Below, in pieces: positions 41,227 through 52,698 of a DNA stretch of 64,000 nucleotides. The stretch is from Gilvimarinus agarilyticus. GTDB taxonomy: Bacteria; Pseudomonadota; Gammaproteobacteria; Pseudomonadales; Cellvibrionaceae. The stretch covers positions 462,903 to 526,902 of the forward strand of contig NZ_JXCJ01000001.1 in the NCBI RefSeq assembly GCF_000832015.1. Direction: 5' to 3'. Numbering within the stretch: position 1 is the first letter of the stretch; each line of letters begins with the position of its first letter. Below the pieces are notes generated by a model that saw nothing but the letters and a program-made list of their open reading frames with translations, did not search any database and had not been told where the DNA came from. The translations under genes were made by a program, and so were the position numbers.

Positions 41227-42810
41227 ATGAGTAAATACCGCGCGCCTCTGCATCCGGATGCACCGCTTAAACTGAACAGCCACCACCGGCCCATTAGCCG
41301 GCGCGATTTAATCGCCCAGGGCTTTCGCACCGGCGGCGCTACCTTAACCGGCGCCTCGCTAATGACCCTGCTGGCGGGCAACGCCAATGCCGCGTTATCG
41401 CCCGATATTAACGCCATGCGCCAGGCCTGCGGCATTGCCAGCCAGGGCGCGGGTAAAATACCGTTTATCTGCTTCGATTTAGCCGGTGGCGCCAATATTG
41501 CCGGCTCTAATGTGTTGGTGGGCGGCGCCGGCGGCCAGCTCGATACGCTATCGGCCAGCGGCTACACCAAGCAGGGCCTGCCCGGCGACATGACGCCCGA
41601 CAGCAGCACCGGCGATTTTGTGAATCGCGATTTAGGCCTCGCGTTTCACACCGACAGCGGCATGCTGCGCGGCATTTTAGAGCGTGTCGCCCCAGGTACG
41701 GCGGCGGCCGTTAACGGTGCGGTAATTCCCGCCCGCTCCGAGAACGACACCGGCAACAACCCCCACAACCCCATGTACGGCATTAACCGCGCCGGCGCCA
41801 ACGGCTCGCTGCTCTCTTTGATTGGCTCGCGCGCCAGCGACTCAGGCGGAAACTCTATGGCGCCCTCGATGCTGATTAACCCCGAGGCGCGCCCCACCAA
41901 AGTCGACCGCCCCAGCGATGTCACAGGCTTAGTGGATGTGGGCGATTTGGTGAGCTTGCTCAGCCAATCTGACACCGTCGCGGTCATGGAATCTATGGTG
42001 CGTTTAAGCAACGCCAAACTGGGCGCGGTGGATACCGGCAGCAACCGCGATGCCGCGCTTAAAGAGTTAATGCGCTGCGGCTACGTAAAAAGCGCCGATT
42101 TAGCCGACCGCTTTGGCAACCCCGCGGCCATCGACCCGATTGCCGATGCGGATATCGTCGGCCCCGGCGGTATTTTTAGCTTTGACGAGTTTGATAACGA
42201 CAGCGAGTTTCGCAAAACCGCTTCGGTCATGAAGCTGGTCATGAGCGGCTACGCTGGTGCCGGCACCATTACCATGGGCGGCTACGACTACCACACCGGC
42301 GATCGGTCCACAGGTGAGATTCGCGACTTACGCGCCGGCCGCTGCATCGGCGCCTGTTTAGAATACGCCGCCCGCATGGGCGTACCGGTTATGATTTACG
42401 TATTCTCCGACGGCTCGGTGTTCTCAAACGGCATGCTGGATGAATCCGCCGAGGGCCGTGGCAAAGGCGTCTGGACCGGCGACAACCAACAAACCGCCGC
42501 CAGCTACTTTTTGGTGTACAACCCAAGCGGCCGGCCCACTATTTTAGGTGGCTCTGCCGCTGCGCAAGCGTCGCACCAACAGCTCGGGTTTATGCGCTCC
42601 AGCGGCGATGTTGAAACCGCCTCAAGCCCAGCGGCCAATAATGTGAACCTATTGGTCGAGACCTTGGTGCTGAACTATATGGCGCTGCACGGCGAGCAAA
42701 ATTTGTTTTCTACGCTGTTTCCACAGCATGGGCTGGGTAACGCCACGGCGTTAGATCGGATGACGGCGATGAACCCGATTTGTGATGGAACGATTGGGAA
42801 TTTGGTTTAG
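41227..42810 (+). CDS. Tat-exported DUF1501-like protein
   Basis: 527 residues with an N-terminal twin-arginine signal (PISRRDLIAQGF then a hydrophobic stretch ending GNANA). The body resembles DUF1501/sulfatase-like secreted proteins: KIPFICFDLAGGANIAGSN, GGYDYHTGDRSTGEIRDLRA and GVPVMIYVFSDGSVFSNG. Tat export implies a folded, possibly cofactor- or metal-bound protein. It closes the operon after the two heme proteins; the heme/Tat pairing parallels DUF1588-type and DUF1501/1552-type pairs elsewhere. A duplicate of its last 25 codons occurs at 44141-44215. Confidence 0.8.
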   Translation: MSKYRAPLHPDAPLKLNSHHRPISRRDLIAQGFRTGGATLTGASLMTLLAGNANAALSPDINAMRQACGIASQGAGKIPFICFDLAGGANIAGSNVLVGGAGGQLDTLSASGYTKQGLPGDMTPDSSTGDFVNRDLGLAFHTDSGMLRGILERVAPGTAAAVNGAVIPARSENDTGNNPHNPMYGINRAGANGSLLSLIGSRASDSGGNSMAPSMLINPEARPTKVDRPSDVTGLVDVGDLVSLLSQSDTVAVMESMVRLSNAKLGAVDTGSNRDAALKELMRCGYVKSADLADRFGNPAAIDPIADADIVGPGGIFSFDEFDNDSEFRKTASVMKLVMSGYAGAGTITMGGYDYHTGDRSTGEIRDLRAGRCIGACLEYAARMGVPVMIYVFSDGSVFSNGMLDESAEGRGKGVWTGDNQQTAASYFLVYNPSGRPTILGGSAAAQASHQQLGFMRSSGDVETASSPAANNVNLLVETLVLNYMALHGEQNLFSTLFPQHGLGNATALDRMTAMNPICDGTIGNLV

Positions 42811-42856
42811 CGCGCGGTTGGGTACACCGCCGTCATCCCAGACCCTCTACAGCGTC

Positions 42857-42878
42857 ATCCCGGACCCCGATCCGGGAT
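42857..42878. repeat. Short palindromic intergenic repeat
   Basis: ATCCCGGA-CCCCGA-TCCGGGAT, a perfect 8-bp inverted repeat, preceded at 42834 by a partial copy of its left flank (CGTCATCCCAGACCC). This type of 'CGTCATCCCGGACCC' palindrome is common in marine proteobacteria. Could also terminate the redox operon. Confidence 0.6.
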
Positions 42879-42939
42879 CCAGTGAACGAAGCTGCTAAGT
42901 GTAGAGCTGGAACTTAACGATTGAATGATCATTAATTTT

Positions 42940-43216
42940 TAGCTGGGTGCGCTCTGTCACCGCACGGGCGAAGCACTCTTCTGCTTGTCCAGAAAAGTAA
43001 TCAAAAGAGGACACCCCGGCATCTCAGCCCTCGGCAACTGCTCCTGCGTTGCTCTATTCAGCTACATCCCTGTAGCGATTCGGGTTCCCTCGCTCCAGCC
43101 GATTTTAGAGGGCCGCATCGACACGCCGTCCCTGGCGTGACGATGGCTTGCGCAAATGTCCTATTTGCTTACCCCCTAAAATGGGCCTGCGCTCGGCTGG
43201 CTGCAGGGGGCGTAAA
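42940..43216 (+). repeat. Structured dispersed repeat, copy R2
   Basis: Matches R1 (inverse orientation) and R3. Stems: ACTCTTCTG/CAGAAAAGT at 42975-42998 (one mismatch), GCTACA/TGTAGC at 43061-43076 (loop TCCC), CATCG-A-CACGCC/GGCGTG-A-CGATG at 43116-43145 (loop GTCCCT), GCAAAT/ATTTGC at 43152-43168 (loop GTCCT). The last two are enclosed by ATTTTAG/CTAAAAT (43102-43108 with 43176-43182) and CCAGCCG/CGGCTGG (43095-43101 with 43194-43200). No gene. Confidence 0.85.
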
Positions 43217-43294
43217 ACACCACTTCGTCGTTAGCTTTTATACCAGCCCACTAGATAAGCTAAGCTCAAACTTACGATCACATTAAAACAGTTG

Positions 43295-43318
43295 AATAAT
43301 AACTTATATGTTATTATT
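43295..43318. promoter_or_regulatory. Palindromic operator candidate for the toxin-antitoxin operon
   Basis: AATAATAAC-TTATAT-GTTATTATT, a perfect 9-bp inverted repeat, 24 bases before the toxin start; the TATAT centre could double as a -10. Autoregulation by the antitoxin is the usual arrangement. Confidence 0.6.
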
Positions 43319-43341
43319 ATGAGCAAAAGGGAGTTTGATCT

Positions 43342-43686
43342 GTGGTATTGCCTGCAATCCAGCGAAAAACCCAAGAGTATTTGGTTCAGGATGGCCGAGC
43401 GCCATTTCGGGATTGGCTGATGGGGCTCAAAGATACTAGAGCGCAGGTAAAAATCACCAAGGCTGTAACTCAAATGGAAGCTGGAAACTTTGGCGATCAT
43501 AAGCCCATTACAGGTGGTAATGGTTTGCAGGAGCGCAGAATCAATTACGGCCCAGGTTATCGAATTTATTACATCACCGAAGGCGATGAGTTGATCATAT
43601 TGTTCGCTGGCAGCGATAAATCAGATCAACAGGCAGTTATCGATACCGCTAAAACATATTTAACCGATTACAGAGCGAGAAAGTGA
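43342..43686 (+). CDS. Type II toxin, RelE/ParE-superfamily addiction-module killer (HigB-like)
   Basis: 114 residues of the TIGR02683/PF05973 killer family: FRDWLMGLKDTRAQVKITKA, then the core GLQERRINYGPGYRIYY and LFAGSDKSDQQ. Members are usually ribosome-dependent mRNA interferases. Start GTG at 43342 with AGGGAG eight bases upstream. The antitoxin lies 83 bases downstream; toxin-first order is typical of this family. Probably an acquired module inserted between the Tat gene and its duplicated tail. Confidence 0.88.
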   Translation: MVLPAIQRKTQEYLVQDGRAPFRDWLMGLKDTRAQVKITKAVTQMEAGNFGDHKPITGGNGLQERRINYGPGYRIYYITEGDELIILFAGSDKSDQQAVIDTAKTYLTDYRARK

Positions 43687-43769
43687 GATACAGACTTCTC
43701 GCTTAGCAAATCTAGGGCGCTGCCTACAATAAAGGCGGCACAAAAAAGTAAACGATGAGGTAACCTCAA

Positions 43770-44093
43770 ATGGCCTTAACCCGAGAATTTAAAGATACCG
43801 TTATGGAGCTTTGCAAAGACCCCGCGTATCGCAAAGGGTTATTGCTAGAGGCTCTGGAGTCTTATCTTGAAGGCGATATCGTCGTCGGTAACTCCATGCT
43901 TCGCGATTACCTGAATGGCACACAAGCCTTTGCCGAGATCGCACATAACTTGCAAATTCAAGAGGCTGGACTTCGCCGTATGGTTAGCCCCAGCGGTAAT
44001 GCTACCGCTAAGAATTTATTCCGGCTGTTTAAAGCCTGTCAGGATCGCGAAGGAATTCGCTCCGCAGATGAGTTTTTAGGGTATGCGGCTTAG
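43770..44093 (+). CDS. Cognate HTH antitoxin
   Basis: 107 residues with a C-terminal helix-turn-helix of the antidote family paired with TIGR02683 toxins (AEIAHNLQIQEAGLRRMVSP and GNATAKNLFRLFKACQD). It would neutralise the toxin and repress the operon, likely at the palindrome 43295-43318. Its ribosome-binding site GAGG sits in a tiny hairpin GAGG-TAA-CCTC (43757-43767), which could temper translation. Confidence 0.82.
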   Translation: MALTREFKDTVMELCKDPAYRKGLLLEALESYLEGDIVVGNSMLRDYLNGTQAFAEIAHNLQIQEAGLRRMVSPSGNATAKNLFRLFKACQDREGIRSADEFLGYAA

Positions 44094-44140
44094 GCTTTAT
44101 TGTCACAATGTGAATGGTGGGGCCTGACGCCCGATGCGAC

Positions 44141-44215
44141 GGGAACGCTACGGCGTTGGATCGGGTGACGGCGATGGCGCCGATTTGTGATGGGACGGTT
44201 GAGGATTTGGTTTAG
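44141..44215 (+). pseudogene. 3' remnant duplicate of the Tat DUF1501-like gene
   Basis: 75 bases aligning without gaps to 42736-42810, the last 24 codons plus stop of the Tat protein gene: 64 of 75 bases and 19 of 24 residues agree by my count. It encodes GNATALDRVTAMAPICDGTV then EDLV and TAG. No start or upstream body is left. As in the intact locus, a copy of the structured repeat follows. Confidence 0.85.
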
Positions 44216-44290
44216 GGGGCTGTGCGCGCTTTTTGTTTAAAGCTCTATACTTTCTGGATTTGAGCTAGAGATTCGCTTGTTCCAGTTTTC

Positions 44291-44515
44291 TAGCTGGGTG
44301 CGCTCTGTCGCCGCGCGGGCGAGTTACTTCTTGCGATGCGGCAAGAAGTAACCAAGAAACGCACCCTGGCATCACGACCTTCGGCTTCCCTCATTCCAGC
44401 TGATTTTAGGGGCACGGCTTGACGGGGCGTCCATGCCCCGACAAGCTCTTTCGCGAAATCCATTTCGCTCAACCCCTAAAATCAACTTCCATTCGGCGTG
44501 CTGCAAGGGATTTGG
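44291..44515 (+). repeat. Structured dispersed repeat, copy R3
   Basis: Same layout as R2 with different stem bases: GTTACTTCTTGC/GCAAGAAGTAAC at 44323-44352 (perfect 12 bp), GCTTG-A-CGGGGC/GCCCCG-A-CAAGC at 44417-44446 (loop GTCCAT), GCGAAAT/ATTTCGC at 44453-44468, enclosed by ATTTTAGGGG/CCCCTAAAAT (44403-44412 with 44473-44482). The first 20 bases are nearly identical to the start of R2. No gene. Confidence 0.85.
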
Positions 44516-44644
44516 GCACCGTGCGAGATTTAGGCTTTATCACATGCAAAATAAAAATCAAAGGACTCGAACCTCATTACCTCTGCCTTACAAAAAAATC
44601 GTCGACTCTGTTAATCTATCGTCACTATTATTCTGGAGCGTTCG

Positions 44645-44992
44645 ATGTCTGAAGACCCTTTAAAAACCTTGTCCGACCAAATAACTGAGGCTCACACTAA
44701 GATTCAGCAGTCCCACCAACACATCAACCCAGTGGTTGAGGTACGCCGTGGCTTGCGCGATACCGGTATTCCCGCCGATGTTATGACGGTTGATTGCTTG
44801 CGTACCCGCCGACGCATTATGTTGATATTGCATGATGGAGAGCCAGGCATATTGCTCTATCAGTTTGCAAGTCTGGATGAAGAGGCTGATGACGAGTTTC
44901 AGCGCAAGAGTTTGTCTGAGATGGGGGTTGATGTGCTGTTTGACTGGATGCAGGACTACTTCTCTGACTCTCCCAAATTGAAAAATCACTAA
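44645..44992 (+). CDS. Conserved hypothetical protein
   Basis: 115 residues, acidic, no signal peptide or TM helix. Contains MTVDCLRTRRRIMLILHDGE and a C-terminal amphipathic helix (MGVDVLFDWMQDYF). I do not recognise the family. It lies between R3 and the broken IS110 element in an accessory region; may be plasmid- or prophage-like in origin, but composition is close to its neighbours. Confidence 0.6.
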   Translation: MSEDPLKTLSDQITEAHTKIQQSHQHINPVVEVRRGLRDTGIPADVMTVDCLRTRRRIMLILHDGEPGILLYQFASLDEEADDEFQRKSLSEMGVDVLFDWMQDYFSDSPKLKNH

Positions 44993-45169
44993 AAAATAGA
45001 CCGATTGAGAAAGTGGAGGGTGGCCTTAATATCAAGCTTGGATTAAACCTTGCATCTTACACTTTCATGTAAGTGGTAAGACCTGATAAACATAAGGCAG
45101 CCTCGCCCCACCACCGTGGCAGTGAGGACTACAATGGTTGTCGACCAAAACAAATCATTGGAGGCTGTT

Positions 45170-46172
45170 ATGACACTTTATTGCGGAATCGACCTACATT
45201 CAAACAATATAATTATGTTTACGTTATTAACGACAAGGACAAGCGATTGCTGGAGCTCAAGCTCGACAATCATCCCGAATTGGTAATCAAAGCCCTGTCG
45301 CGATATAAGAAACAGTTAAAAGGTGTGGCGGTCGAATCCACGTTCAACTGGTATTGGCTGGTAGACGCCCTTAAAGACGCAGGCTTTTCTGTTAGCCTCG
45401 TGAACACAGCAAAGGTTGTTCAGTACAATGGCCTAAAGCGTACCGACGATCGCTACGATGCGTTTCACCTGGCTCATCTAATGCGCCTAGGAATTCTTCC
45501 TACCGGATATATCTATCCCAAGGAGCATCGAGCATTGCGGGATTTGCTGAGAAAACGTATGCAGTTGGTACAAGACCGAAGCCGGGAGATTATCCGACTC
45601 AAATCCTTTATACAGGTCAGACGTTAAGGGCAGACAAGATTAAGGCCAAGGAATTTGTTGCCCCTAGAATCGGTGAGGCTAATACTCAGCTAGCGCTACA
45701 AACCTCAATAGGTATGGTGCGTGCGTTTACCCAGCAAATAAAAACCGTGGAGCGGTCAATTAGTCACCAAGTGAATTCATCGCCGAATTTCAACTTGCTC
45801 AAGACCGTACCGGGAATAGGCGATATACTCGCACAAACCGTTCTATTGGAAAGCGGCAATATCAAGCGGTTTAAAGGGCCTGGGAATTTCGCTTCATACA
45901 GTCGATGCGTCGACAGCCGACGTGAAAGCAACGGTAAGAAAAAAGGCGAGAATAATAGAAAAAACGGTAACAAGTACTTAGCGTGGGCTTTCATTGAAGC
46001 AGCCAATTTTTCCATTCGGCGCAGTGAAAAAGCCAAAGCTTTCTACCAGCGCAAGGCCAAAGAAACGAATATCATTTTGGCGAGAAAAGCGCTAGCTCAC
46101 AAATTGGCTAGGGCCTGTTACTGGATTATGCGTAACGGCGTCGCCTATGACGAGAAACGGCTATTCGCCTAA
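45170..46172 (+). pseudogene. IS110-family transposase, inactivated by two frameshifts
   Basis: DEDD (RuvC-like) recombinase of the IS110 family. Starts at ATG 45170 (TLYCGIDLHSNN, first catalytic Asp), shifts frame near 45210, continues (VYVINDKDKRLLELKL; VESTFNWYWLVDAL with Glu; RTDDRYDAFHLAHLM with the last acidic pair), shifts again near 45605 and ends in the Transposase_20 domain (LKTVPGIGDILAQTVLLESG) to 46172. Both shifts equal a one-base deletion, so the element is probably dead; sequencing error is the alternative. A GGAGG lies before the ATG. Confidence 0.85.
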
Positions 46173-46175
46173 GCT

Positions 46176-46244
46176 TGGCGGAGCCGGTTAACCATTGACG
46201 GGGTTGGCACTAAACCACCAGACCTGATTGGCCCGGCTTCGCCA
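46176..46244 (+). other. Structured non-coding end of the IS110-family element
   Basis: A 12-bp stem TGGCGGAGCCGG/CCGGCTTCGCCA (one mismatch) encloses 45 bases with an inner GGTT/AACC hairpin, right after the transposase stop. IS1111-type elements carry their bridge-RNA region downstream of the transposase; this is a candidate remnant. Confidence 0.4.
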
Positions 46245-46687
46245 CCTAATGACGCGCCATGAGAGTATTTGCTCATGCTTCGAGTCAGCAACGGGTTGAG
46301 CCAATGATGAAGTTAACAGTTGAGCTCACAGATCTGTCATTTGAATGAACAAAGTATGGTACCGATGTTTTTCTGGGGCGAAAGCCAGGGCTATTTAACA
46401 ATAGCTTGATCCTGATGGGTGACTGGTGCAGTTGAAAAACACCAATCCAATGAAAAGCCGGGTGCAATTTTCTCGAGGGCGTCTGTAGATCGAAAATCCT
46501 GTTCACTCGGGAGGAGTTTTCTCGTCTTCGGTTGACAATTTTCCTAATGGGTGGCCCTGATACCCTAAAATAGACATCCGCTCGGCTGGATATACGGTAA
46601 TTAAAGAGCGGTGCTTCGTAGAAAAATTACGATCCAGTTTATATTAAGTAAACTGTCCCCGGAATTCCTATATGGTATCCTTGGGAT
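46245..46687. other. Intergenic region with repeat fragment R4
   Basis: No gene. A short fragment of the structured repeat is present at 46558-46592: CCTAAAAT, a short spacer, GCTCGGCTGG, matching the right arm of R2 at 43175-43200. Confidence 0.55.
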
Positions 46688-49243
46688 TTACACTTGGCGA
46701 CCTATTCTAGATTTATTTTTTTCGTCAAATTTTCTCGTCTTATATGGCACTTCCAGAAGGGAGAAAATTGCCTGTCTGTAACTTTCTTTAACGATGTGGG
46801 TTCTTTCATAGTGTTGGGTTCGAAGTGAGACCATGCGATGCAAAAAGAAAGAGCTTTCTCTTTTGTATCTAGAGACCATAGACTCCAATTCCCTTTTCAG
46901 CTTCTCATCAAATCCTCTGCTAGTGTCTAACAAGTAATAATATCTAATCAAATGGTACGCTGGGGTGGCTTTTCTTTCCGAAATTTCGAATACAATTTCT
47001 TCTAGTTCTGGTTTGTTAATGGAAGAAACTACTTTCTCTATAGCACCAATTACCCATAGCATAACCTGGCATACTAGTATTTGTTTGACTTGATAAAGTT
47101 GTGATGATTTGCTGGAGTCGGGATCAAACTTGTCAGTCTTTTTATACCTTTCATATATATATTCAGCAAATAAATCAATCTCATTCTGGTCTTCAAGCAT
47201 GACAGAGGCAAGTCGCAGACCAGCATCACATATTATTTCAACAATCTCTGAAAGTTTATTTTTCTTCAAGCTTCCCGTTTTATTCTTTAGTATTTGGCTC
47301 AAAATTTCCATGTTTTTATTACATTGAAATATTTGGTTGAGAAGCCTGTTCTGGCCGTTACTATCATCCATAGCACTCTGAGCTGAAGGGCTTTCGGAGT
47401 TCTCAACATCTGTTCGATGTTTTCTCTCCTTAGCTCTTTCAGTTTCTACATTACTGTTAGACTCTGTTGTCAGTTTTTCAGGTATGACCTCTTCTAAAAC
47501 CTCCGAAAAAAGAGAAGTTTCTCCTCCGCTTAAATCCGTAACTTTCTTTTCATCCAGAGCACACAGCGTGTGGGCTAATATTTCATCAAGAATGGAAACA
47601 TCGTTTGCATGATGTATGGTGAATATTAAAGTTAGAGAGTTATGTCTCGCATAACTGCTTTCTACCATTGAAGATACGCATTCCTTGTTGTCCTGGTAGT
47701 TTTCAGTAAGATATTTTCCCAGAAAGAAGTAATAGCTATACGATATGCTAAACCTTACTTCACCATTGTTTCTATCCAGTAACCCGTAATCACTAAACAT
47801 TCTGTTAAGAACAGAGTTTTTTATTATGTATTCATTCTTGTAATCTCGGACGAATTCTTCAAATAGATCTTCAGTAAACTTTGTGCCAATCCCATTAAGA
47901 AACATTCTGTATGAAAGACTCGAGCAAAAAGTAAAAACCGACTCTAATGTGCTGTCTTCTCGACTAATTCCAGATTTAATTATTCTCGCTAGTATTAATG
48001 CGTGATAACAATGTCCGTAAGCAGTAATTTTTAGGTTCTCCGGCATGAAGCTTTCGTAGGTCTGAAGTATTGAGAGTATAAAGAAGGGATGCCTAGGAAG
48101 AACTTTGTTGTCTATTATAATCGAATTAATATTATCTTCTATCGAATCTACAAGGTCATAATCTATACTGTCTGTATCTTTGTCTGCTTTAAGCCAGTTT
48201 TTAATCAGTGATTCCTGTCTTTCATGGCAAAATGGCTTAAACTCGATAACATTAAAATCTATCAATCTTTCATCGTCTATATAGTAAGATTTAAAGCAAT
48301 CACTACTGCTTAATATTATTATTTTCTTAAAGTGTTCTTTTGCATATAACATCAGCTCAAGACACTTTTTATCCTTAGAGAGGTTGTCAAAGATGATGTA
48401 CTTGTTTTCAGCGGAAAACCATGTTTTGAAGTCTCCAGTTTTTTGATGTTCGAATATTTCTTGTAATATTTTATGTTTATTCTTTCCTGTTCCAACGCTA
48501 TCAAAATCTACATAAATAAAAGGCCTGGAGTCGTGGTTGTGCTCAAGGTAAAGCCATGCTGCTAATTTTGTTTTTCCACATTGGTCCTCTCCATGAATAA
48601 TTTGATAATCATACTTCATCAACTGATCAATCGTTTCGATTAGATTTTCTTCGATTCTTTCGCTTTCGTCGTAGGTTGCCAGATTGGGGAAAACAAAAAT
48701 ATCTTTTAATGTAATCTTCGTTGTATTCTTTGAACAAAACTCTATTGAAGTAAGGTCACTTAGGAACTCCGGCCTTACTTGAAAGTTTTTTTTTAAGTCC
48801 ATTGCCACATTTTTTATTCCTTCGTAGATGTTTAGCCAAGCCGAATCAGTTGAAGTCCAGTCGGCGACGGGCTTGCCGTCGTAAGGGAGAGCCAAATATT
48901 TACTCATATTGTCAAAATCAGTCCAAGGACATCTAGATCCAATGATAGGGATTAATCTTTTTCCGGTATCTTTAATTGAAATTTTCTTGGCTAGCTCCCA
49001 TTCTTCTGTGCAAGCATCTGAGTTCAACCAGTTCGCCGTAATCAAAAATATAAATATATCAGATTTTTCAAGGTTGCTAACAATCTCAGACTTCCAGTCA
49101 CTACCGGCTGTGATTTCACCATCAAACCACTGCTCAATGACATCATTTCGAACTAAAGTAGTTAAATGCTTCTCTAGCCCTCTTCTCAGTTCATCATCTT
49201 CGTGAGAATAGCTATAAAAAAGCTTTAGAGGTTTTGTATCCAT
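46688..49243 (-). CDS. TIR-domain NTPase, probable anti-phage defence protein
   Basis: 851 residues. N-terminal TIR domain (about 6-130: LKLFYSYSHEDDELRRGLEK), with the putative NADase Glu81 in ANWLNSDACTEEWELAK. A P-loop NTPase follows (about 190-420): Walker A GEDQCGKT at 218-225 and a Walker B-like KYIIFDN at 281-287, as in STAND proteins. The C-terminal half is helical and of unknown fold, perhaps the sensor. TIR-STAND proteins deplete NAD+ on phage recognition. The gene is much more AT-rich than the flanking core, and no partner gene is adjacent, consistent with a single-protein system gained by transfer. Confidence 0.8.
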   Translation of the reverse strand: MDTKPLKLFYSYSHEDDELRRGLEKHLTTLVRNDVIEQWFDGEITAGSDWKSEIVSNLEKSDIFIFLITANWLNSDACTEEWELAKKISIKDTGKRLIPIIGSRCPWTDFDNMSKYLALPYDGKPVADWTSTDSAWLNIYEGIKNVAMDLKKNFQVRPEFLSDLTSIEFCSKNTTKITLKDIFVFPNLATYDESERIEENLIETIDQLMKYDYQIIHGEDQCGKTKLAAWLYLEHNHDSRPFIYVDFDSVGTGKNKHKILQEIFEHQKTGDFKTWFSAENKYIIFDNLSKDKKCLELMLYAKEHFKKIIILSSSDCFKSYYIDDERLIDFNVIEFKPFCHERQESLIKNWLKADKDTDSIDYDLVDSIEDNINSIIIDNKVLPRHPFFILSILQTYESFMPENLKITAYGHCYHALILARIIKSGISREDSTLESVFTFCSSLSYRMFLNGIGTKFTEDLFEEFVRDYKNEYIIKNSVLNRMFSDYGLLDRNNGEVRFSISYSYYFFLGKYLTENYQDNKECVSSMVESSYARHNSLTLIFTIHHANDVSILDEILAHTLCALDEKKVTDLSGGETSLFSEVLEEVIPEKLTTESNSNVETERAKERKHRTDVENSESPSAQSAMDDSNGQNRLLNQIFQCNKNMEILSQILKNKTGSLKKNKLSEIVEIICDAGLRLASVMLEDQNEIDLFAEYIYERYKKTDKFDPDSSKSSQLYQVKQILVCQVMLWVIGAIEKVVSSINKPELEEIVFEISERKATPAYHLIRYYYLLDTSRGFDEKLKRELESMVSRYKRESSFFLHRMVSLRTQHYERTHIVKESYRQAIFSLLEVPYKTRKFDEKNKSRIGRQV

Positions 49244-49434
49244 TTTTTCACCTTAAATAATATGTAAACCGCGAAAAACTGATCTTAATTTGAGAGTCGC
49301 TGGGGGCTTGAGGCCTTGCATTTCATACAATAAAAATACAAAGGCTGCCTTGGCCCCATCTTAAAATTTCCGCGAATTAATTGATGAGCCCAAAGGGAGG
49401 AGAGGTATGGTGTATATCCAAGCTATACCCGCTA

Positions 49435-49790
49435 TTATCTAACCTTCCTGACTGGTTCAATCTGACTTATCGTGGCCTGCTCCTGGCAAGCGGTTTGGGT
49501 GATAAGCCTTACGCGCTATGCGGTTAAGTGTGCCACGGCTTTTTGCGGTTGACAACTGGGTGGGCAGCAGGGGGCACCAGTGTGAAATTTGCCGTATAAA
49601 GCCATCGGGGGCAGGTCTTGAATTGTGAATCCACCACACCCAACCCGTACTACAGGGGTTAAGCTTTTCAATTTGCACAATGCAAAAACCACAAACACGA
49701 TAACTCTCTCATTAATATTTATGCGATGAATTAGCTAACTGGAAAGGTAGGGGAAAGAACTACTGCGTAACATCTGAGCTAAGCCCTTTA
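49435..49790. repeat. Imperfect tandem repeat, unit A
   Basis: First of about 2.5 direct units of 355-380 bases. Shared landmarks with unit B: CTTATCG..GATAAG arms at 49464-49508, an AGGTCTTGAA..TGTGAATCCACCACAC block, and an almost identical 3' part (CCCGTACTACAGGGGTTAAG and following 130 bases). Minus-strand ORFs in it (VVFALCKLKSLTPVVRVG) recur in unit B and look like repeat by-products. Confidence 0.8.
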
Positions 49791-50169
49791 TTATCTCACC
49801 TTCCAAACTGGCTAAATCTTGGCTTATCGTGGCTTGCCATCTTGGCAGGCGGCCTGTACGGGCGATAAACCTTACGCGCTATGTGGCTTATCGTGCCACC
49901 GTTAAGCGGCGTTGGCAAGCTTGTGGGCTGGGTGGTTTTGGCCGGATACCCGACGTTGACAGGCTTTACAGGTGGGGGAGCCATCGGGGTCAGGTCTTGA
50001 AATGTGAATCCACCACACTCAACCCGTACTACAGGGGTTAAGCTTTTCAATTCGCACAATGCAAAAACCACAAACACGATAGCTCTCTCATTAATATTTA
50101 TGCGATGAATTAGCTAAATGGAAAGATAGGGGAAAGAACTGCTGCGTAACATCTGGGCTAAACCCTTTA
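49791..50169. repeat. Imperfect tandem repeat, unit B
   Basis: Second unit. Arms GGCTTATCG (49821-49829) and CGATAAACC (49863-49871) flank an inner TGCCA-TCT-TGGCA hairpin, followed by GTGGC/GCCAC. Its 5' half matches unit C and its 3' half matches unit A. Confidence 0.8.
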
Positions 50170-50365
50170 TTATCCCACCGTCCAAACTGGCTAAATCTTG
50201 GTTTATCGTAGCTTGCCATCTTGGCAGACGGCCCTTTCAGGCGATAAACCTTACGCGCTATGCTGCTTATCGTGCCACCGTTGATCATTGTTGGCAAGCT
50301 TGTGGGCTGGGTAGTTTTGGCCGCTTACCGAACGTTGACAGGCTTTACAGGCAGCTGGATAATTA
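50170..50365. repeat. Imperfect tandem repeat, partial unit C
   Basis: 5' half of the unit only; similarity ends after the TTGACAGGCTTTACAGG block near 50353. Arms GGTTTATCG (50200-50208) and CGATAAACC (50242-50250) pair perfectly around TGCCA-TCT-TGGCA (50214-50226). Confidence 0.75.
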
Positions 50366-50488
50366 TCGCCGGGCTCATTGGGCGCCCGCCTCGCAAAAGT
50401 GATTCACCAATCGTATCTATAATCTGGCAAGCTTTGCTTGCATATCATCTCTGTCCGATATCGAGTAGGTCACTGTATTGGAGGCGAT

Positions 50489-50938
50489 ATGCATACACCA
50501 TCCCATTCCCCGGGTTTTTCCCCTGCGGTTGTCGAGTCGTTTTTGCGCGAGGCCAAAAGGCTGCAGCGCGCGGCATGCTCTGGCGATCTTGCTGATTGTT
50601 TACCGGTTTTGCGACGTTTGCTTGCCCAGCGAGTATTTACCGGTGTCACCTTACCCCAGCTGCGCCGGCGGCAAGGTTTAGTGCAGCGCAAACATACGTT
50701 GCAGTTGCTGGCGCTTGAGGCGGGTTACAGTTGTTGGGCTGAGTGCCGTAGGGCGCTTGAAACCTTACCCGCTGAGCGGGCAGAGCAGTACCACCTGGCG
50801 TTGCGCTATGCGGGGTATCCGAACCATTGGTTTTCATCGCTGCAAGAGGCCAAGGCGTTTGCATCCCAGCACGGGGGCTACCCTTTGGCGTATGGCCGTC
50901 AAGGAGTTGTCGTTCCCGCGCGTCATTACCGCTACTAG
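50489..50938 (+). CDS. Conserved hypothetical protein, accessory region
   Basis: About 149 residues, basic and helical (VVESFLREAKRLQRAACSGD, VLRRLLAQRVFTGVTLPQL, HTLQLLALEAGYSCWAECRR). I recall similar proteins of unknown function with the 'LREAKRLxRA..LP.LxR..QRKH.L..LA.EAGY.SW' layout in proteobacterial accessory regions. ATG 50489 has GGAGG with suitable spacing; the open frame runs to 50438. No signal peptide. Confidence 0.7.
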   Translation: MHTPSHSPGFSPAVVESFLREAKRLQRAACSGDLADCLPVLRRLLAQRVFTGVTLPQLRRRQGLVQRKHTLQLLALEAGYSCWAECRRALETLPAERAEQYHLALRYAGYPNHWFSSLQEAKAFASQHGGYPLAYGRQGVVVPARHYRY

Positions 50939-51274
50939 GTATATAGGTGGGGTCAGGTAACGCTTATCTTGGCCTATCTCTACGTACGAGGAGCACCGGG
51001 GTCAGAGGAGCACCGGGATCAGGCCTTACATTTGACATTTTTAGATAAACTTACGGCCTCACTCCAACGTTCGCGTACCTCCACGCTTTGCGCACCGCTA
51101 TATACGCCCCGGTAAGGCCCATTCACAACGATCAGTTAAGTTGTGCCAGCGCCTACCAAACTCAACGGCTTGAATACCCCAACCGTTATCCCGCAACAGT
51201 TTGTTACACCCTTTTAGTGTAGAGGTTTGTTACAGTACCCGACGCATATTTATGGAGCCATAAAAGGAATTTGT
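50939..51274. other. Intergenic region with short direct repeats
   Basis: Two adjacent 17-base repeats, GAGGAGCACCGGG-RTCAG, at 50988-51022. The motif GGGGTCAGG or a variant also occurs at 50949, 51016 and inside tandem units A and B. No gene recognised. Confidence 0.5.
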
Positions 51275-51769
51275 ATGAAACCTATGTATTTAATCGCGCC
51301 ATTACTGCTGGTTATGGCTGGCTGTGATAGCAGCGACGATAACGACGAGGATATTTACAGCGGCACCCCACACCCTTACAGCGTGATTGAGTGTGGCCAA
51401 AGTAGTTACTCCACGATTACCGAACCAAACCACGATAGAATTACCAGTACCCACGACTTTCGTGAGATTTATGGGATCACCGACCTTAATAAACAAGGTG
51501 AGACGCCCAGTGTAGATTTCGACACCAAACAAGTCATCGCGATTCATGCCGGCGAGAAAGCAAACCCCGGACACGCACTGCGGGTTGATGAGGTACTAAA
51601 AGACGGCGACTCTCTGAAAGTTCTGTACACCACTATTACGCCCAGTAACACCGGAGAATGCAATTACCCTGATATGGGTGTGTATCCGTATTGCTTTATT
51701 GCTATGGATAAAACCGAGCTGCCGATAAATTATGTACGAAAAGTAGAAGAGGGAAGCTGCTCGCGGTAG
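51275..51769 (+). CDS. PrcB-like lipoprotein
   Basis: 164 residues from ATG 51275 (AAGGA upstream; frame opens at 51227). Lipobox VMAGC, Ser/Asp linker, then a domain similar to the PrcB C-terminal domain (VDFDTKQVIAIHAGEKANPG, LKVLYTTITPSNTGEC). Such domains are found on envelope proteins, some associated with proteases; no partner protease is nearby. Function unknown. Confidence 0.65.
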   Translation: MKPMYLIAPLLLVMAGCDSSDDNDEDIYSGTPHPYSVIECGQSSYSTITEPNHDRITSTHDFREIYGITDLNKQGETPSVDFDTKQVIAIHAGEKANPGHALRVDEVLKDGDSLKVLYTTITPSNTGECNYPDMGVYPYCFIAMDKTELPINYVRKVEEGSCSR

Positions 51770-52098
51770 TGAGCCGCTCAACCAGCAGTACCGTATCAAG
51801 CTTAAGACTTAGCCCGTTGCTCATGTGACATTCTGTTCGGTAGAACGCGACAGCGGCCACTGTGTCAAGATAATGATCATTACTGCTATTTTAAACAGGT
51901 ACAGGCTCCGCTTAGCGGAAAGCACGGCGAATAATGTGACTAAAGTTCAGGGGCCTTGTGCTTGATCCGACTACAAGGTTGCGAACAGCGTGAACCTGTT
52001 CAGAGCATTAACGAGCGAGCTTTGATTTAATACTGAGCTAATTTTTGGATAGCCAGTTGGTGTTGCTAAACTTTTATACGTGTCTATATAAGGATTTT
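51770..52098. other. Intergenic region, no gene
   Basis: Holds a perfect palindrome TAATGATCATTA at 51871-51882, weakly resembling part of a Fur site, and a TCCGCT/AGCGGA hairpin shortly after 51905. Otherwise nothing recognised. Confidence 0.4.
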
Positions 52099-52698
52099 AT
52101 GATGTTGCTTAAAGGACTCCGAAAATCTCGCGGTTATTGTTTCATCACCCTTTTGTTTGCACTTTCGGTATCAGCTTGTGGGCCGGATATCGATACCATT
52201 GGCGAACTTGATAAGTTCTCCGATCGAACCGAGGAAATTCTGGAGAAGGATCGTGAATTGGCCGAGGAGTACGGCGCTCTTCTGGATAAAATAAACCGAA
52301 CCTTAGAAGAAACCAACAGCGCCAAGGCTGTGGTAGAAGCCGGGCTATACGATCAGCTCGCCGACAACATGGACGCCGCACTAAAGATAAGCAAGCAATA
52401 TCAGAAAGAACTTGAAGAATTCTTTAGTCAGTTAGACGAAGATTCCCCCTGTTATTTTCCCGAGATTGCAGAGAATTTGAAGGCAGCCATTAAAGAAAAA
52501 CAAGCTTATGCGGATGCATTGAATGAGCTACAAGGGGCAGAAATAGAAGAGGGCAATGCCGTGCTTTTAGGGGTGAATGCTACGCCTAACTCATTTGCGG
52601 CGGGCATGAGCAACATGGTGGAGATGATTAAAATATGCCAAGTCCCCGCCGCTATGGGAATGACCAAATCAGAACTGGAAGCTCGCTCTGAGCGATAA
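52099..52698 (+). CDS. Coiled-coil lipoprotein, unknown function
   Basis: About 199 residues from ATG 52099 with AAGGA upstream. Lipobox SAC (VSACGP) then long helices rich in Glu, Lys and Leu (FSDRTEEILEKDRELAEEYG, KISKQYQKELEEFFSQL), predicted coiled coil. Family not recognised. More AT-rich than core genes, fitting the accessory region. Confidence 0.65.
   Translation: MMLLKGLRKSRGYCFITLLFALSVSACGPDIDTIGELDKFSDRTEEILEKDRELAEEYGALLDKINRTLEETNSAKAVVEAGLYDQLADNMDAALKISKQYQKELEEFFSQLDEDSPCYFPEIAENLKAAIKEKQAYADALNELQGAEIEEGNAVLLGVNATPNSFAAGMSNMVEMIKICQVPAAMGMTKSELEARSER

Follow-up and report, generated by a model that had tools for sequence, protein, structure and literature searches.

Does the gene at positions 46688-49243, on the minus strand of a 64,000-nucleotide stretch of Gilvimarinus agarilyticus DNA, encode a complete anti-phage system in one protein? 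An earlier note on this stretch (called the window throughout, at its full length) had proposed so from a TIR domain, nucleotide-binding motifs and a long C-terminal region in a solitary, AT-rich gene. The open reading frame proved to be real, intact and rightly placed: it has an ATG start, encodes 851 amino acids without internal stops, and is single-copy, as a search of the whole 4.19-Mb host genome (G000) returned only the gene itself. Its composition is indeed unlike that of the core, with a G+C content of 35.9% in the coding sequence versus 55.8% in window positions 1-42810, and 35% at third codon positions, where two leftward genes have 72% and 77%. The dead IS110 element said to lie nearby is an IS110-family transposase on the plus strand (45073-46172) which, according to open reading frame calls and the family match, is broken into two frames that do not agree (45073-45627 and 45714-46172).

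To collect homologues, a profile was built from three sequences over residues 150-851; a scan of genome_contigs with it gave 56 loci ranging from Gammaproteobacteria to genomes or MAGs of Poribacteria, Chloroflexi, Bacteroidota and Bacillota and to a Methanocellales archaeon. The nearest homologue, from Marinomonas shanghaiensis, shares 54% identity over the full length. Alignment A3, which holds the full-length proteins, omits eight loci, three because of cuts at contig ends (L016, L017, L056) and five as short or broken (L039, L047, L063, L065, L066); the 49 full-length proteins include the window protein, as does every count out of 49 below, and alignment A4 additionally leaves out L019, L058 and L062. 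The N-terminus is TIR_2 in 42 of these proteins and Metallophos in seven, a sample skewed to TIR because the query was TIR-type. Members were found in 6 of the 144 genomes of the host's taxonomic family, its own genome counted, and their N-termini were judged by eye to be TIR-like in four cases and metallophosphatase-like in two. The search of the phage collection gave no matches. On plasmids, 44 records matched, in none of which did a single place account for 80% of the query, and the best match, on Vibrio parahaemolyticus plasmids, reached 79% coverage at 26% identity. At one locus from a gammaproteobacterial MAG (L059, 5903-9088), an amino-acid-permease-like stretch is fused before the TIR domain, which may be a real membrane-anchored form or an assembly fusion.

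The putative effector is the TIR domain at residues 1-150 (48794-49243, minus strand). Residues 9-105 match Pfam TIR_2 above the cut-off (E 3.6e-14), and the best-scoring PADLOC profile for the domain is ThsB (E 1.4e-27), whose model is matched by 42 of the 49 family members. The claimed catalytic residue Glu81 (codon 49001-49003) lies in the context ..SDACTEEWE.. and is aligned to the Glu in WCWDEL of Cat1; both Glu81 and Cys78 are invariant in all 42 TIR-type homologues. Structure prediction, which the earlier note had suggested as a check, agreed with the assignment. In the full-length AlphaFold2 model (pLDDT 84.2, pTM 0.74), residues 5-148 superimpose on RPPT-TIR with a Z score of 16.4 and an rmsd of 2.0 Å over 134 residues, and approximately residues 4-151 match plant TIR domains, SPARTA TIRs and AbTir (Z 13.7-16.4 among the matches listed). 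The domain thus has a TIR fold with the catalytic Glu in place, and NADase activity is predicted from sequence and model.

The P-loop NTPase core follows at residues 205-355 (48179-48631, minus strand), where residues 214-317 match Pfam AAA_14 above the cut-off (E 8.4e-7). The Walker A stretch named in the earlier note stands up to comparison: in GEDQCGKT (residues 218-225) Lys224 is kept in 48 of the 49 proteins, with Arg in L015, and Gly223 in all. The Walker B residue Asp286 is likewise kept in 49/49. Residues 356-514 (47702-48178, minus strand) continue the STAND module; they are helical, contain an aromatic motif at approximately residues 498-507 and are winged-helix-like by our reading of the model and the motif. 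Within this part, nSTAND_NTPase4 (residues 456-508) scores 25.0 bits against a cut-off of 27, just below threshold in the window protein, whereas 45 of the 49 proteins match it at E<=0.001. From residue 153 onward the model aligns with the NLRP3 NACHT with a Z score of about 15 and an rmsd of about 11 Å. For the NTPase part against NLRP3, NOD2 and RPP1 the values are Z about 14-15 and rmsd 6-12 Å, mostly above 10 Å because several domains are aligned together. The top Foldseek matches of the model include the plant TIR-NLR RPP1, NLRC4, NLRP3, Avs4 and Avs5, and the lower ones also include unrelated AAA ATPases. With a P-loop carrying Walker A and B and with helical and winged-helix-like domains, the window protein is a STAND/NLR-like NTPase.

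For the region behind the TIR domain, which the earlier note could not assign, a relative was readily found. The NCBIfam model NF053861 (DS8_antiphage) covers residues 144-831, corresponding to model positions 298-993/994, with an E value of 6.4e-100, and this C-terminal region therefore belongs to the wider DS-8 family. The score of 335.3 bits is far under the curated cut-off of 790, so the window protein is not the same equivalog as DS-8; it has no Metallophos match and carries TIR_2 at the N-terminus instead. The PADLOC profile PDLC05050 for PDC-S60, which had no curated cut-off in the PADLOC run, matched residues 143-766 at its positions 185-826 of 906 (E 3.2e-26). Each of the two models is matched by 49 of 49 members. 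DS-8 itself, from the DefensePredictor work, joins a metallophosphatase and a NACHT domain in one protein and, according to the part of its paper available to us, protects E. coli; defence is lost when the predicted catalytic residues of the metallophosphatase, or the NACHT residue, are mutated (PMC13092281). The same available part does not identify the nucleotide degraded by DS-8, and the word 'TIR' is absent from the main text (PMC13092281). Homology to this experimentally validated system supports the anti-phage role that had been put forward for the gene, as a candidate role.

The C-terminal domain (residues 515-851; 46691-47701, minus strand) is all helical, is common to DS-8-type proteins according to NF053861, a C-terminal HMM and the model, and is the putative sensor. 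The HMM, built from the 42 TIR-type rows only, found the domain in all seven proteins of the metallophosphatase type (E 2e-33 to 7e-55 for six of them, 1e-7 for the truncated L062) and in none of 140 shuffled sequences; the whole rear half is therefore common to both forms, beyond the NTPase alone. Together with the NF053861 and PDC-S60 matches in 49/49 proteins, this rules out that the C-terminal half is unassignable. Nor can the sensor half be called new, as the earlier note had wondered, since it aligns to nearly the whole corresponding part of DS-8 and is also present in metallophosphatase-type relatives. A separate model of residues 510-851 was again all helical (pLDDT 89.1, pTM 0.87). 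Foldseek placed no solved structure at E<=0.001 beside it, and its first matches were TPR proteins at E 0.2 or worse; no TPR family was matched in the Pfam search of the window protein. A microtubule-binding helical domain, the best VIA-align match (Z 9.8), was discarded as lying within the chance range for helical models. Neither Pfam nor structure comparison yielded a convincing relative of this domain, nor any relative whose ligand is known.

The divergence of this domain bears on what it may recognise. For 15 TIR-type pairs, which we chose from tree neighbours and from whose means one metallophosphatase pair was excluded, mean identity was 70% in the TIR domain, 65% in the NTPase core and 70% and 75% in the two C-terminal parts; the C-terminal domain exceeded the NTPase core in conservation (p 0.008) and did not differ from the TIR domain (p 0.49). 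Over all 861 TIR-type pairs the identities were 43% for the TIR domain, 31% for the NTPase and 38 and 39% for the two C-terminal parts, so that the C-terminal domain lies between TIR and NTPase. The rapid divergence that an arms race would impose on a sensor is not seen in these identities. We take them to favour a conserved trigger over the simple, direct sensing of a phage surface that varies.

In the maximum likelihood tree of the NTPase and C-terminal part, one branch with a support of 100/99 splits the 42 TIR-type from the seven metallophosphatase-type proteins. The program flagged four metallophosphatase-type rows and L015 as long branches and warned that long branches meet; the branching details among those rows are therefore uncertain. 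The window protein groups with that of Marinomonas (100/100), joined by a Chloroflexi MAG (100/96) and, next outward, by MAGs of Poribacteria and of a gammaproteobacterium (100/100).

Is the protein sufficient, or does it act with a partner? In an all-against-all comparison of 590 neighbouring open reading frames from 57 loci (the 56 and the window), many of which end at contig edges, no recurrent partner gene was found. The two largest neighbour clusters comprised 6/57 loci each: the genes of one lie at many different positions, and the other consists of pieces of broken homologues (L047, L063, L066) and of a second TIR gene (L018, L019, L020). This speaks against a system completed by a recurrent neighbour and agrees with the one-protein architecture originally claimed. 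In the three Halomonadaceae loci L018, L019 and L020, the second gene is TIR-only and lies directly upstream of the TIR-STAND gene, an arrangement which suggests a two-TIR operon. By our reading of the sequences, type I restriction genes seem to adjoin L022, L040, L048 and L064.

ThsB makes a signal and does not deplete NAD+. The ThsB-like TIR therefore makes a signalling role conceivable, in which the window protein would act as a sensor-cyclase and not as a killer, producing a cyclic ADP-ribose-type messenger for a separate effector in the manner of ThsB and ThsA. The ThsB profile scores and the additional TIR-only genes of the Halomonadaceae favour this explanation. However, a search for the STALD domain of ThsA gave no match in the host's own genome, the same search scoring above cut-off elsewhere in the order (3 of 194 genomes), and the neighbourhoods hold no recurring partner gene. 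The missing STALD partner speaks against membership in Thoeris type I, and we regard the messenger explanation as unlikely, if the best of the alternatives.

A gene that we read as DUF1501-like (41227-42810) marks the left flank in 8/8 Gilvimarinus genomes with 82-100% identity, and the gene content to its right varies among them, so that the accessory location noted earlier is a variable site (window 42736-52000; counterparts in L075, L076, L079, L080 and L083). In G005, the nearest relative (94% for the DUF1501-like gene), the flanks are about 21 kb apart, compared with 12 kb in the window. The repeats previously seen near the gene are real, a 24-nt core being present three times with none expected. 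They bracket the TIR-STAND gene: repeat A lies on its downstream side (46563-46667), and repeat B, a conserved element of approximately 130-300 nt, forms an array of about three copies on its upstream side (49302-50307).

The same two repeats enclose other genes in the relatives. In G006 they bracket a type II CBASS operon (cyclase, E1-E2, JAB and a two-TM SAVED effector). In G007 the enclosed gene encodes a Dsr1-like SIR2 protein of 1259 amino acids (PADLOC Dsr1, 1.9e-84), with two small open reading frames between it and A; this contig runs into the right-hand flank gene of the window (82% over 1503 bases), the left side being on another contig. G003 holds a TIR gene, two others and a small 115-aa open reading frame beside A. 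The three larger genes (L079, 805-4981) encode a ThsB-like TIR protein, a 243-aa protein without match and a 774-aa RyR-domain protein, and form a candidate new defence operon. In G001, which is Gilvimarinus algae (identical sequence at the compared locus), a PIN_8 protein without PADLOC match lies between A and weak B matches, and A and B bracket another three-gene stretch (L076, 458-4075), of which the two genes scanned were unmatched in PADLOC and in Pfam resembled only filamin- or Ig-like families. In G005, B precedes the genes for a GHKL ATPase and for a cytosine methyltransferase (PADLOC REase_II, MTase_II); no repeat A was found at the far end of this restriction-modification-like pair. 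A NACHT protein adjoins B on a 19-kb contig of G004 that matched no core flank gene and is hence unplaced, and in G002 no candidate defence gene was found with one open reading frame scanned.

Overall, a defence or defence-like gene adjoins B in 7/8 genomes, counting the window and the unplaced G004 contig. PADLOC gave a strong match to a known system or component in G005, G006 and G007, a weak one in G003 and G004, and none in G001. In 7/7 cases B stood immediately upstream, with its orientation relative to the genes always the same; the genes for this count were picked after the maps had been seen, and the shared site alone would fix part of the order. The second bracketed stretch of G001 speaks against a site given over purely to defence, as do B copies in G002, on the G004 contig and at other places in G006, which adjoin genes not recognised as defence. 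B also occurs beside low-G+C genes elsewhere in G006 (L084, L085) and in G004 (L082). Hence 'solitary' holds for the gene itself and fails for the site, where other Gilvimarinus strains keep other defence or defence-like genes. This repeat-bracketed site is a fresher observation than the TIR-STAND gene.

RNAalifold gave weak pairing for 11 B copies, with an unfavourable covariation term and compensatory change in 3 of 31 pairs, and we therefore make no RNA claim for this repeat. An Rfam scan of 42500-52500 yielded no match above the gathering score, and promoter and terminator scans gave results at chance level. Two related repeats on the minus strand (43110-43174 and 44354-44518) reached 27.8 and 32.7 bits with Rfam TwoAYGGAY against a gathering score of 43, and might be a divergent RNA of this kind or chance. 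The site also contains two small HigBA-like toxin-antitoxin genes (43342-44093), the first matching Gp49/DUF891 and the second without Pfam match; in G005 (L075) transposase-like open reading frames, named by eye, split the first of them. A conserved 115-aa protein without Pfam match is found near repeat A in the window (44645-44992) and in L076, L078, L079, L082 and L083.

Toxin-antitoxin-like genes and insertion sequences at a variable site would also fit a conflict or cell-death protein directed against plasmids, other mobile elements or internal stress and not primarily against phages, and the fairly conserved C-terminal domain fits a conserved or host-derived trigger. Against this stand the anti-phage function of the closest tested relative, DS-8, and the phage defence systems that occupy the site in relatives, and we consider such a role improbable. 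An inactive or decaying acquisition, which the single copy, the patchy presence and the adjoining broken IS110 might suggest, is very improbable given a stop-free reading frame of 851 codons, the retention of all tested catalytic residues and a confident model.

We consider it likely that the gene product is an NLR-like protein that brings about abortive infection as a one-protein system, and that it is a relative of DS-8 with a swapped effector. The mechanism is proposed by analogy with DS-8, the Avs proteins and the TIR-NLR described in PMC9122126: a phage-linked signal would be recognised by the helical C-terminal domain together with the NTPase; nucleotide-dependent assembly of the NTPase would bring the TIR domains together; the assembled TIRs would cleave NAD+ via Glu81, to ADP-ribose or a cyclic isomer; and the infected cell would stop growth or die before phage release. 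All of these activities are predictions built on what was seen directly, that is, the three-part architecture, the intact residues, the homology to DS-8, the low G+C content and the site used for defence. The DS8_antiphage match, the shared C-terminal domain, the intact residues and the NLR-like fold matches speak for this reading, as do the patchy presence (6/144), the defence systems that relatives carry at this site and the lack of a STALD gene. Another single-gene TIR-STAND system, whose C-terminus is of a different kind, argues in the same direction, since it protects E. coli according to the available part of its paper (PMC9122126). The score of 335 versus 790 bits, a putative sensor that is not the fastest-evolving part, a C-terminal domain without a known-ligand relative, a TIR that is ThsB-like by profile and repeats that bracket genes without defence match too all count against it.

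If this is true, DS-8 does not stand alone: a widespread sensor family would have two effector forms, DS-8 being one, of which the TIR form is the commoner in this sample (42/49), though the queries were TIR-type. Natural TIR and metallophosphatase forms, compared on the same phages, would give a direct handle on whether the shared rear part sets specificity, and the Gilvimarinus site would be a small natural catalogue of defence operons, unassigned ones included, found by position alone. More tentatively, it is possible that the NTPase and C-terminal part of DS-8 are an ancient portable phage-sensing module that serves two unrelated chemistries with the same trigger in Bacteria and at least one archaeal MAG, and that Gilvimarinus has a dedicated repeat-bracketed site which exchanges whole defence operons in one orientation behind B; we would not expect both to hold. 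The literature searched, with bioRxiv and most subscription journals outside its coverage, held no description of the TIR form of the DS-8 family or of the Gilvimarinus site.

Already known are TIR-STAND single-gene defence, DS-8, effector exchange in other STAND architectures and the listing of PDC-S60. Thoeris ThsB works with ThsA. The window protein shares with ThsB a TIR domain of the same profile family, but this domain is fused to an NTPase and the genome has no STALD gene. PDC-S60, a candidate class that is not known to have been tested and that none of the papers searched names, resembles the window protein and all other members through the PDLC05050 match, but the first 184 positions of that profile lie outside the match. 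Avs5 and Avs4 (AVAST) have a STAND NTPase, an N-terminal effector, a C-terminal sensor and a similar overall fold, but another effector and another C-terminal domain, and no Avs model matched the window protein in PADLOC; Avs5 triggers NAD+ depletion, as stated in the part of the source at hand (PMC12931631). In STAND conflict systems, as far as the accessible text describes them, TIR and calcineurin-like phosphoesterases interchange before STAND NTPases, a likeness in exchangeable effectors, but the C-terminal contexts given there are FGS and TRADD-N and not the DS-8 C-terminal domain (eLife 2021, PMC8195603). The TIR-NLR of P4-like satellites, as presented in the available portion of its paper, is likewise a single protein with an N-terminal TIR, a central STAND NTPase and a C-terminal helical part, for which protection was demonstrated and in which the TIR is replaced by SIR2 or nucleases elsewhere (Rousset 2022, PMC9122126). 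By its description it has C-terminal tetratricopeptide repeats, for which the window protein gave no Pfam family match and Foldseek matches at E 0.2 or worse. The comparisons did not place the window protein among the TPR-type TIR-NLRs, Thoeris or Avs. DS-8 is closest, being one protein with a NACHT/STAND NTPase and a C-terminal domain homologous over residues 144-831, but it carries a metallophosphatase as N-terminal effector where the window protein carries a TIR domain.
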